A stretch of DNA of 64,000 nt from Planctomycetota bacterium (lineage in GTDB: Bacteria > Planctomycetota > Planctomycetia > Gemmatales > HRBIN36): the NCBI GenBank assembly GCA_014584395.1, contig JACTMY010000020.1, positions 168,631 to 232,630 on the forward strand. The letters are read 5' to 3'. Each line of letters opens with the position of its first letter. Positions within the stretch are counted from its first letter, which is position 1. This document shows positions 22,160 to 26,696 of this stretch, piece after piece. The notes below the pieces were generated by a model, which worked only from the letters and a program-made list of their open reading frames with translations, made no database searches and was not told the origin of the DNA. The position numbers were made by a program, and so were the translations under genes.

Positions 22160-23542
22160 ATGTCCGCGCCTTCACTGTATCCCAATGAACAGCATTTGGG
22201 ATTGATGACGGATATGCAAGCGTTGACCCTGGCCGCGGGGTATTACACCCATGGCCTGGCGGATCGGAAGGCGACTTTCGAGTTGTCGATCCGCGAGATG
22301 CCGCCTCATCGGCATTACCTCGTGGCGGCGGGGTTGGCCCAGGTCATTCACTACTTGCTGCGGTTTTCCTTTTCACCGGAACAGATCCGCTGGCTCCGGC
22401 AGCAGCCGTTGTTCGCCAAGGTGCCCGTGGGGTGGTACGAAAAGTTGGATGCCCTGCGCTTCGAGGGCGATCTGTGGGCCATCCCCGAGGGGACGATGGT
22501 GTTCCCGCCGAGTCCGCTGCTGCGCGTCACGGCCCCGCTCATGGCGGCCCAGTTGCTGGAAACCTACCTGATCAGCACGATCATGATGCAGACGATGGTG
22601 GCCTCGAAGGCGAGCCGCATCGTGACGGCGGCCCAGGGTCGGGCACTTTGGGACATGGGGGCGCGGCGGGCTCATGGTCCGCAGGCGGGCATGTTGGCCG
22701 CCCGCGCCGCTTACCTGGCGGGCTTCGAGGGGACCAGTCATGCCGAGGCCGCCCGCCGCCTCAACATCCCCACCGCCGGGATGCAGGCCCATGCCTGGTT
22801 CATGAGCTTTAAGGATCAGAAGGATGCGTTCCGTAAATTCGGCGAGACTTTCCCCGAGGGCGTCACCGTCGTTTTGGATACCTTCGACACCCTCGACGGA
22901 CTGAATCGGGCCCTTTCCTCCGGAACCGCCATCCAAGCCGTCCGCATCGACAGCGGCCACCTCTTGAACCTGAGCCGCGAAGTGCGCCGGCTGTTGGATG
23001 CCGCCGGTCGGCCGCAAGTGAAGATCATCGTCAGCGGCGACCTCAACGAACAACGCATCCACGACTTGCTCGCCGCCGGGGCGCCGGTGGATGGCTTTGG
23101 CGTCGGCACGGAATTGGTCACGAGCCTGGACGCGCCGAGCCTCGGCTGCGTCTACAAACTCGTGGAGATCGAGACGGAGTTCGGCCTCGAAGGCCGGCTC
23201 AAGAACGCCCCGGACAAGAAAAGCTACCCCTATGCCAAACAGGTCTATCGCTTCACCGGCGGGGATGAGCGGTTCGAATTTGACGAGATCACCCGCAACA
23301 CGGAAACGCTCTATGGCGATCCGCTCATGATGCCCATCATGAAGAACGGCGAACTGGTCGAACCCCTGACCTCCTTGGCCTCCCTTAGGACTCGCTGCCA
23401 GGAACAACGGGCGCTCCTGCCCGCGCGCTTGCTCGGGCTGGAGGAGACGGTCGAACCCTACCGGGTGCGGATCAGCAAGCACTTGGAGCGGGAAGCCGAG
23501 CGGCTGCTCAGCCAAAGCTCGGATGAATTTTCCTTTGTCTAA
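22160..23542 (+). CDS. pncB: Nicotinate phosphoribosyltransferase
   Basis: A 460-aa enzyme of the NAD salvage (Preiss-Handler) pathway, making nicotinate mononucleotide from nicotinate and PRPP. Motifs: N-terminal LMTDMQALTLAAGYY, the RRAHGPQAGMLAARAAYLAGFEGTSH block, MQAHAWFMSF, VLDTFDTLDG and VRIDSGHL, and the phosphate site IIVSGDLNEQRI. ATG 22160 follows TAGGAGCCTT; the track start at 22031 adds 43 unrelated residues. Its 3' end faces the amidase across an intergenic stretch that contains parS. Confidence 0.92.
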   Translation: MSAPSLYPNEQHLGLMTDMQALTLAAGYYTHGLADRKATFELSIREMPPHRHYLVAAGLAQVIHYLLRFSFSPEQIRWLRQQPLFAKVPVGWYEKLDALRFEGDLWAIPEGTMVFPPSPLLRVTAPLMAAQLLETYLISTIMMQTMVASKASRIVTAAQGRALWDMGARRAHGPQAGMLAARAAYLAGFEGTSHAEAARRLNIPTAGMQAHAWFMSFKDQKDAFRKFGETFPEGVTVVLDTFDTLDGLNRALSSGTAIQAVRIDSGHLLNLSREVRRLLDAAGRPQVKIIVSGDLNEQRIHDLLAAGAPVDGFGVGTELVTSLDAPSLGCVYKLVEIETEFGLEGRLKNAPDKKSYPYAKQVYRFTGGDERFEFDEITRNTETLYGDPLMMPIMKNGELVEPLTSLASLRTRCQEQRALLPARLLGLEETVEPYRVRISKHLEREAERLLSQSSDEFSFV

Positions 23543-23579: not shown

Positions 23580-23595
23580 TGTTCCACGTGGAACA
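23580..23595. promoter_or_regulatory. parS: parS centromere site (ParB binding)
   Basis: The 16-bp palindrome TGTTCCACGTGGAACA matches the conserved bacterial parS consensus TGTTNCACGTGNAACA exactly. It sits in the 106-bp gap between convergent pncB and the amidase, so it cannot be a promoter operator for either. The parB gene begins about 2 kb away. Confidence 0.9.
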
Positions 23596-23648
23596 TCCCG
23601 CCCCTTGGCCGCGCGTCCGGGGCGGTTGCCGACGCCGGCCCGGTCGGT

Positions 23649-25304
23649 TCAGGTCCCGTTCAGCGGCGGCCGTTTCAGGTGAAACCCGGTGGCTTCCTGA
23701 TAGGCCATGGCCACGGCGAGCAGTTCCGCTTCACCGAACAATTGGCCGGTGAAGGTCAAGGAGATCGGCACGTCCGCGCCGTTGCGCTTCGTGAACCCAT
23801 TAGGGAGGCAAACGGACGGATGGCCGGTCAGGTTGGTCGTTGAGAGGTCATTGCCGCCGACGTAGAGGTCGACCTGTTCGAAGACCTTGGCCATGTCGTC
23901 CATCAATTTGGACCGGAGCCGCTGGGCGCGGAGGTAATCGACGGCGGTGATCCATTGGGCGGCGCGAAAGGGCGTCGGCCAGAGCTTGCCGATCTGTTCG
24001 AGTTTCCCCGCCTGGGTCAGGTGGTCGAAGGCGGCTCCGGCCTCGGCGTTGAGGATGGTGTTCACGATCATCCCCGCTTGCCGTTGGGGTAGACTGATCG
24101 GCACGATCTGCACGCCGATTTCGCGCAGCACCTTGACCTCGGGCCGATCGTCGCTGTTCCGACCGGGGACGCCCACCCGCAAGGCGGCGAGTTTCTTCGG
24201 TGAAGGCCAAACATAGTCCCGGTCGACGGCGGTCGGGTCCCGGCCGTCCCGTCCCTGAATCGCACCCAGGACCAGGGCGCAATCCTCCACCGAACGGCAA
24301 ATCGGCCCGATCTTGTCCATGGTCCAGCACAGGGCCATGCAGCCATGTCGGCTGACCCGGCCAAAAGTGGGCCTCAATCCGGTGGCTCCGCAGCGGGTGG
24401 ATGGGCTGACGATGCTGCCCAAGGTTTCGCTGCCGAGCGTGAAGCCGACCAAACCCGCCACGACTGCCGCAGCCGAGCCGGCGCTGGAGCCGCTCGAACC
24501 TTCTTGGGGATTCCAGGGATTGTTCGTGCGGCCGCCGAACCAGACGTCGTTGTAGGCCAACGCGCCCAGGCTCAACTTGGCCGCCAAGACGGCCCCGGCC
24601 TGTTCAAGCCGCTCCGCCACCGTGGCGGTCATGGCCAGCATTTGTTCCTGATATTCCCCCGCTCCCCAGGTGGTCTTGTAATCCTTTACGGCGATCAAAT
24701 CCTTCGCCCCCCAGGGAATCCCGTGCAGCGGTCCCCGATCCTTGCCCTGCTTCAGTTCCTCATCCGCTTGCTTGGCTTGCTTGAGCGCGAGGTCTTCCGT
24801 CAAGGTGATGACGCATTTCAAAAGCGGATCGAACTTTCGCAAGCGCTCGAGATAGAGCTGGGTCAATTCCACGGAACTGATCTGCCCCGACCGCAGCAGG
24901 TGGCCCAGTTCGCTGATGGATAAAAAAGCGATCGCCTCCGGCTCGGATGGTTTCTTCAACGCCTTCTGACGGGCGGCGACCGAGACGGTGGCTTGCTTCG
25001 GCGCGGCGGCGTTCGGCGTCGGATCGAAACGCACGGCCAGGGGAACCTCGTTGGCCAAATCGACGCGCCGGGCCGCATCGATTCCCCGCCGGTAGCCGGT
25101 GAGTGCTCGCGCCACTGCTACGCGGTCCTCGTCCTTCAAGGTGATGCCCGCCACCCATTCGGCCTGTTTGAGCATCTCCGCCGTGATGACGTTGTTGGGC
25201 GCGGGCGTGTCCTGGACCAGAGCCGCGGCGGCACGCTGAAACACCATCGTCCCGATGCCCAAGGCGGACAGCGAGGCAAGCACGGAGCGTCGGTCAACGA
25301 GCAT
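23649..25304 (-). CDS. Exported amidase (amidase-signature family)
   Basis: A 551-aa amidase-signature enzyme. The catalytic Lys is in IPWGAKDLIAVKD, and the Gly/Ser region is QEGSSGSSAGSAAAVVAGLVG with GSETLGSIVSPS. An N-terminal twin-arginine-like signal (DRRSVLASLSALGIGTMVF) points to export, unlike GatA. An extra helical segment of about 100 residues precedes the domain. It hydrolyses an amide bond of unknown substrate. The start ATG 25304 is plausible. Its 3' end contains a degenerate parS-like sequence. Confidence 0.85.
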   Translation of the reverse strand: MLVDRRSVLASLSALGIGTMVFQRAAAALVQDTPAPNNVITAEMLKQAEWVAGITLKDEDRVAVARALTGYRRGIDAARRVDLANEVPLAVRFDPTPNAAAPKQATVSVAARQKALKKPSEPEAIAFLSISELGHLLRSGQISSVELTQLYLERLRKFDPLLKCVITLTEDLALKQAKQADEELKQGKDRGPLHGIPWGAKDLIAVKDYKTTWGAGEYQEQMLAMTATVAERLEQAGAVLAAKLSLGALAYNDVWFGGRTNNPWNPQEGSSGSSAGSAAAVVAGLVGFTLGSETLGSIVSPSTRCGATGLRPTFGRVSRHGCMALCWTMDKIGPICRSVEDCALVLGAIQGRDGRDPTAVDRDYVWPSPKKLAALRVGVPGRNSDDRPEVKVLREIGVQIVPISLPQRQAGMIVNTILNAEAGAAFDHLTQAGKLEQIGKLWPTPFRAAQWITAVDYLRAQRLRSKLMDDMAKVFEQVDLYVGGNDLSTTNLTGHPSVCLPNGFTKRNGADVPISLTFTGQLFGEAELLAVAMAYQEATGFHLKRPPLNGT

Positions 25305-25480
25305 GTTGATTCTCGCAAGATAAGGGAAGGATCGAAACCGCTTCAGGATCGGCCCGATTATAGTCGGCCGAGGGGGGTAGTGCGAAAGGAAAGTCGGAGC
25401 GCGGGCCGAGCGGTTCCCAGCTTCCTCGGCTTGCTGGATTTTCCCATCTCGCCACCCGGCTGGTTGGCTGCCAACCTGCG

Positions 25481-25509
25481 TTGCCCGATTTGGGCGTCAA
25501 TGCTAAAAT
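25481..25509 (+). promoter_or_regulatory. Promoter of parB
   Basis: TTGCCC (25481-25486), a 17-bp spacer, then TAAAAT (25504-25509), preceded by TGC to make an extended -10. Transcription would begin near 25516, 47 nt before the ATG. Confidence 0.6.
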
Positions 25510-25562
25510 CCCCCGCCGATGCGCCGCCCGTTTCCAGAACCATGCATGAGGGAGACCTTCCC

Positions 25563-26495
25563 ATGAATGATAAACGCCGCCTGGGTCGAGGATTGGATGC
25601 TTTGTTTGGCGGATCGGCTTCCCCCTCGTCGGCGGAGATCGCGCTGCCCGCCGAGGCCGATGCGGCGGACGCCCTGGCCGGCCAAGCCTGGTCGGAAGTG
25701 CCCATCGCTCAGATCGAAACCAATCGCTTTCAGCCGCGGAAGGAGTTTGACCGCGAATCCATCGAAGCGCTCAGGAGCAGCCTGGAAACGCATGGGCTAT
25801 TGCAGCCAATCGTCGTGCGCAAGAACGGCGACCACTTTGAGCTGATCGCCGGCGAACGGCGTCTCCGCGCCGCCAAGGAAGCGGGCTGGTCCAACATTGC
25901 CGTCCACGTCGTGGACATGAACGATCAATCCGTCTTCGAGGCGGCCCTCGTTGAAAACATCCAGAGGAGCGACCTCAATCCGCTCGAGAAGGCCAAGGGC
26001 TTTCAAGAGTATTTGGAGAAATACAAAGTCAGCCAGGAGCACCTGGCCAAGCGCATCGGCGTCGACCGGGCCACCGTCGCCAATTTGATTCGTTTGCTCG
26101 AGCTGCCGCCCAAGGTGCAGGAGGCGGTCCGCCATGGCCAGATCACCTTCGGCCACGCCCGGGCCTTGTTGTCCCTGGATGAACCGGAGCAGCAGGTCGC
26201 CTTGTGCAAGGAGATTCTGAGCAAGGGCATGTCCGTCCGCCAGGTGGAAGCGACGATCAAGGAGATGAAGTCCGCGGGGACCGCCGCCGCTGAGGCCGCG
26301 GCCGAACCGAAAGCGGACGTTCCGAAAACGCATCACGTCCAGCAGATCGAGGATGAACTGCGGCAGCGCTTCGCCACTAAGGTGGCCATCAAGCTGAAGG
26401 CGGCGGACAAGGGACAGGTGGTGATTCAGTTCGACAACAACGACGACTTCGAACGCATCCTGGCGATCCTTCGGCCCGCGGCCGCCGCAGCTTAG
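25563..26495 (+). CDS. parB: Chromosome partitioning protein ParB (Spo0J)
   Basis: A 310-aa CTPase clamp that loads on parS and helps segregate the origin. The N-terminus RLGRGLDALFGG is the conserved ParB start. The CTP/DNA domain shows FQPRKEF, GERRLRAAKEAG and ENIQRSDLNPLEKAKGF. The helix-turn-helix IGVDRATVANLIRLLELP and FGHARALLSL follow, with a C-terminal dimer domain after an Ala-rich linker. ATG 25563 has GAGGGAG before it; the track start lies inside the amidase gene. No parA is adjacent, which is unusual. Confidence 0.93.
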   Translation: MNDKRRLGRGLDALFGGSASPSSAEIALPAEADAADALAGQAWSEVPIAQIETNRFQPRKEFDRESIEALRSSLETHGLLQPIVVRKNGDHFELIAGERRLRAAKEAGWSNIAVHVVDMNDQSVFEAALVENIQRSDLNPLEKAKGFQEYLEKYKVSQEHLAKRIGVDRATVANLIRLLELPPKVQEAVRHGQITFGHARALLSLDEPEQQVALCKEILSKGMSVRQVEATIKEMKSAGTAAAEAAAEPKADVPKTHHVQQIEDELRQRFATKVAIKLKAADKGQVVIQFDNNDDFERILAILRPAAAAA

Positions 26496-26607: not shown

Positions 26608-26682
26608 CGGGGTGTAGCTCAGCCTGGCTAGAGCGCTTGGTTTGGGACCAAGAAGTCGCTGGTTCGAATCCAGTCACCCCGA
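26608..26682 (+). tRNA. tRNA-Pro (TGG anticodon)
   Basis: A full cloverleaf can be drawn: acceptor CGGGGTG pairs with CACCCCG, discriminator A. The D-arm is around TAGCTCAGCCTGGCTAGAGC. The anticodon stem CTTGG/CCAAG holds the loop TTTGGGA with anticodon TGG, and the T-arm contains GGTTCGAATCC. CCA is not encoded. It lies 112 bp after parB. Confidence 0.95.
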
Positions 26683-26696
26683 CTTTTTTCAGCAAC

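Follow-up and report, generated by a model that had tools for sequence, protein, structure and literature searches.

The parB and parS locus

The window, i.e. the whole stretch of 64,000 nucleotides that was analysed, corresponds to C6:168631-232630 of the genome of a Gemmatales bacterium, and its end is the contig end. The features at the locus, in window coordinates, are as follows.

22160-23542, + strand: nicotinate phosphoribosyltransferase gene, flanking parS on the side away from parB; a neighbour only
23580-23595, no strand assigned: parS, a perfect 16-bp palindrome, TGTTCCACGTGGAACA, intergenic and flanked by convergent genes
23649-25304, - strand: amidase gene (PF01425, 236.6 bits), between parS and parB; presumably not a component of the system
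25563-26495, + strand: parB, encoding a chromosomal ParB of 310 aa with ParB_N, HTH_ParB and ParB_C domains and the motif GERRLRA
25581-25604, + strand: the ParA-binding/activating box of ParB, LGRGLDAL, residues 7-14
26608-26683, + strand: tRNA-Pro (TGG), 3' of parB; a neighbour only

The palindrome is exact to the conserved bacterial parS 16-mer and lies upstream of parB, at a distance of 1.97 kb, within a gap of 106 bp between the end of the nicotinate phosphoribosyltransferase gene and the amidase gene. The original prediction of a full-match parS between convergent genes, about 2 kb from a real parB flanked by an amidase gene and tRNA-Pro, is thereby borne out. Within the window no other match to the 16-mer is present at up to 3 mismatches. 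A count over all 20 contigs of the assembly (3.7 Mb), also proposed with that prediction, returns this site as the sole exact copy of TGTTCCACGTGGAACA, against a chance expectation from base composition of 0.0005 per genome and 7e-7 within the 5 kb around parB. The two best near matches, C1:266460 and C14:295998, were considered as second parS sites; both lie inside coding sequence (encoding MPMFHMEHC and FHVER, respectively) and are probably coding coincidences, thus leaving one credible parS in the genome. Conserved coding motifs mimic parS at 1-2 mismatches in many genomes, namely FHMEH in a U32-peptidase-like gene and FHVER in a large gene, and such mimics (e.g. L002:1501-1516 and L005:1501-1516) inflate genome-wide parS counts.

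The domains of ParB all score above cut-off (ParB_N 102.6, HTH_ParB 128.7 and the C-terminal dimerisation domain ParB_C 43.9 bits), as does the full protein against TIGR00180 (175 bits). Its match to TIGR04285 (Noc), at 239.6 bits, is under the curated cut-off of 315. The CTP-binding motif GERRxRA is present as AGERRLRAA and is invariant in seven relatives. ParB starts with MNDKRRLGRGLDALFGG and thus keeps the N-terminal ParA-binding/activating motif. In Myxococcus xanthus it is through this motif that ParB engages ParA and switches on the ParA ATPase (PMC12462528). As to the neighbouring genes, the amidase gene occupies the position held by parA in other planctomycete orders, and the nicotinate phosphoribosyltransferase gene also adjoins a parS-like site in two relatives, G005 and G006.

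Proximity of parB to the replication origin holds in relatives, with a distance of 14-91 kb between parB and dnaN in 16 genomes. For the window genome, parB is on C6 and both dnaN and gyrB are on C17, giving a separation of at least ~52 kb. For G007, a genome with a ParB placed beside the window's family in the tree, no contig end comes within 225 kb of parB and dnaN is on another contig; dnaN was not found on the ~140 kb read from this 846 kb parB contig, nor on the 79-100 kb parB contigs of G003, G004 and G006 from the window's own family. GC skew, put forward earlier as a check on origin proximity, is uninformative: it is flat, with no origin signal, across the window and likewise in the 9.4 Mb complete relative G058, sampled at 20 places.

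Across Gemmataceae genomes a short divergent DnaA adjoins dnaN and gyrB. G017 (L115), G094 (L122), G058 (L142), G029 (L241), G081 (L119) and G078 (L161) encode this short protein (~350 aa) by dnaN, usually with gyrB, and in addition a canonical DnaA at another location. The window genome has the canonical DnaA only, encoded on C9; no dnaA was found next to dnaN on C17.

Separation of parA from parB in Gemmatales

Location of parA next to parB is usual in ParABS systems, not obligatory. There is no parA next to parB in the window, and to this extent the earlier description of parB and parS without parA stands. Its extension to a stand-alone pair does not, since a search for parA over the whole genome located a Soj-type ParA on another contig (G000:C13:206303-207187) and since ParB keeps LGRGLDAL. 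Using the profile PF13614 (AAA_31), the C13 protein is recovered as a full-length ParA at 176.6 bits; among solved structures it is closest to M. xanthus ParA (8RAY, E 2.8e-56) and Thermus thermophilus Soj.

Separation is the rule throughout the order. Among 102 Gemmatales genomes, ParB was found in 90 and an orthologous ParA in 94, and parA and parB were never neighbours in the genomes searched. When both genes are on a shared contig they are 0.5-3.8 Mb apart: ~0.53 Mb in G094, 0.60 in G017, 0.64 in G018, 0.73 in G016, 0.92 in G015, 1.57 (round the circle) in G081, and 3.8 in G033. The same is evident from a linkage survey of 80 named ParB loci, 48 from Gemmatales, the order of those relatives that the ParB scan identified by name, and 32 from other planctomycetes. 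ParA was absent from the fetched flank (up to 6 kb) of all 48 Gemmatales loci, whereas it is immediately upstream of parB in 27 of the 32 others, often with parS upstream of parA.

In most relatives a parS-like palindrome is found shortly before parB. Within 700 bp upstream of parB, GTTCCACGTGGAAC with no more than 1 mismatch occurs in 54 of 83 Gemmatales genomes, 29 of these exact; control palindromes matched for composition averaged 0.01. In about a third of relatives this 700-bp stretch holds no clear parS. In G005 and G006 the parS-like site is 2 kb upstream of parB inside a metallophosphatase gene, where it encodes FHVEP and so may be a coincidence.

Parts of the order carry many more such sites. 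Some Gemmataceae (G019, G028, G030, G031, G032, G068 and G072; loci L356-L366, L075, L077, L078 and L159) have 15-54 parS-like sites at up to 2 mismatches, with 0-2 for a reversed-pattern control. In the genomes read from genus g11, many are scattered and belong to a longer repeated motif, approximately ttgtaaaatGTTCCACGTGGAACgtcggcnatcGTTAGAATGtcgcgc; copies are also found beside parB. At another locus, where parB has no adjacent parA, a long reading frame upstream of parB holds three parS-like sites (L331:4750-4840), which encode STWN.

The unlinked, or orphan, ParAs retain most of the surface by which M. xanthus ParA contacts ParB. Residues Y81, D/E82, E117 and L150 are kept in 35 of 35, and the contact positions that differ are D110, replaced by N in 33 of 35, and L152, replaced by V. 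Y81 and E117 are not kept in the parB-linked ParAs of other orders. A further change, N64 to H, is common to all 35; motif 2 of the window genome's ParA (L085) reads DLDPQAH where DxDPQxN is usual. According to PMC12462528, the active-site residue N64 coordinates Mg and water, and N64H, D110N and L152V could alter ParA activity. The orphan gene matches in two pieces in G016 and G018 (L166, L167) and also in G020, G033 and G068, and the G016 and G033 proteins carry a short in-frame insertion near residue 114.

Within the ParA tree the orphan ParAs form one clade apart from the parB-linked ParAs, with both reference proteins on the orphan side. On this tree, with its long branches and two references only, the topology suggests replacement of the parB-linked parA rather than its relocation.

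Joint loss of ParA and the ParB box

The box (LG[RK]GL.AL or close variants) is present in 85 of the 90 Gemmatales ParBs. The five exceptions, G055, G058, G059, G060 and G078, all lack the orphan ParA, and no box was found in any frame upstream of their parB genes. Conversely, the box is kept in all 82 ParB genomes that have the orphan ParA, and a box-less ParB together with an orphan ParA occurs in no genome. The joint loss gives p = 1.3e-6 by Fisher's exact test, or ~0.001 in a conservative version counted by genera (3/3 losses in 6 of ~45 genera). On the ParB tree box loss needs three changes, at least two of which are forced by well-supported branches.

Of these five genomes, G058 (94% complete) and G078 (99%) are single-contig assemblies, G059 and G060 are 93-94% complete, and G055 is as low as 75%. 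By profile search G055, G058, G059 and G078 have no ParA-type match, their best scores being 45-61 bits compared to 155-190 for ParA; in G060 there is another ParA-like ATPase, with 44% identity and without the ParB-contact residues. Three genomes are ParA-negative with the box present, all of them incomplete (68-86%). In G048, a sister of G055 that is 79% complete, the box is kept and no ParA was found.

This joint loss is, at the level of sequence, the strongest evidence that the unlinked parA and parB are partners. ParA-free derivatives are present in at least two Gemmatales lineages. A parS-like site persists near parB in four of these five genomes. In the five, ParB-parS probably survives for a ParA-independent role, e.g. 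loading SMC. With somewhat better than even confidence, we read the history of the order as one in which the parB-linked parA was swapped for a distant Soj-type ParA, after which at least two and probably three lineages dropped ParA, each losing the ParB peptide and keeping parB.

ParB-parS might also work without ParA in the window genome itself, again as an SMC loader, as it does in Streptococcus pneumoniae or Staphylococcus aureus, with the C13 ParA positioning some other cargo. The order-wide unlinking of parA, the difference between the orphan clade and the parB-linked ParAs of other planctomycetes, and the existence of ParA-free ParB-parS systems (PMC7333895) are all consistent with such an arrangement. 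However, the box disappears only where ParA is gone, most of the ParB-contact surface is kept on the orphan ParA, and the genes around parA vary from one part of the order to another and point to no other cargo. We therefore regard this explanation as unlikely.

The palindrome might instead be a chance match, a terminator or a regulatory palindrome unrelated to ParB, given that a gap between convergent genes is the usual place for a terminator and that coding motifs produce near matches elsewhere in the genome. This is very improbable for a sequence expected 0.0005 times per genome yet located 2 kb from parB, and markedly enriched ahead of parB throughout the order. Least credible is a Noc-like ParB, acting in nucleoid occlusion and so having no adjoining parA, for while there is a match to TIGR04285 and some Gemmata genomes have dozens of scattered sites, that match falls below the curated cut-off, the ParA-activating box is present, the nearby site is a parS, and the genome holds one exact copy of it.

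A probable ParABS system with dispersed genes

The locus is thus, in our judgement with good confidence, one part of a chromosomal ParABS system with dispersed genes, in which ParB at the single parS would activate the ParA encoded on C13. From known ParABS biology, ParB would load at the single parS near its own gene and slide as a CTP clamp, and its LGRGLDAL peptide would activate the ATPase of nucleoid-bound ParA from C13; the parS region would then be moved by ParA, resulting in origin segregation. Several points temper this reading. The cargo of the orphan ParA could be something else than ParB, and the losses of box and ParA comprise only about three events. The altered ParA residues, the box-bearing but ParA-negative G048, the ParA-like ATPase of G060 and the relatives with no clear parS near parB also count against it.

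Compared to the ParABS systems of Bacillus subtilis (Soj-Spo0J), Caulobacter crescentus and M. xanthus, the Gemmatales system is alike in parS sequence, ParB domains, the LGRGL box, a Soj-type ParA and most ParB-contact residues. It differs in that parA and parB do not share an operon, the two being 0.5-3.8 Mb apart in relatives with long contigs, and in the N64H change. The parS-parA-parB loci of Pirellulales and other planctomycetes (e.g. Botrimarina L344 and Aeoliella L339) have a homologous ParB with the box, many with parS upstream; their ParA adjoins parB and belongs to the separate ParA clade. Streptococcus pneumoniae and Staphylococcus aureus have ParB-parS without ParA (PMC7333895) and are the counterpart of the five box-less genomes. 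The window genome differs from these in having both ParA and the box, and is not of the ParA-free type; a dispersed ParABS, rather than a ParA-free pair, is typical of Gemmatales.

To our knowledge, chromosome segregation in planctomycetes is poorly studied, and no paper on Gemmata ParB or parS was found in the literature searched. What is new is a variation on a known kind of system, a ParABS with its genes dispersed, together with some ParA-free derivatives. Throughout the order the operon by which ParABS is usually recognised has come apart, with the partnership apparently unbroken, and wherever ParA is present ParB retains its N-terminal peptide. Because closely related genomes differ in having or lacking ParA, they offer a chance to ask what ParB-parS does alone. 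If the proposed history is true, the losses of ParA are natural experiments that would separate ParA-driven movement from the other roles of ParB in very large genomes.
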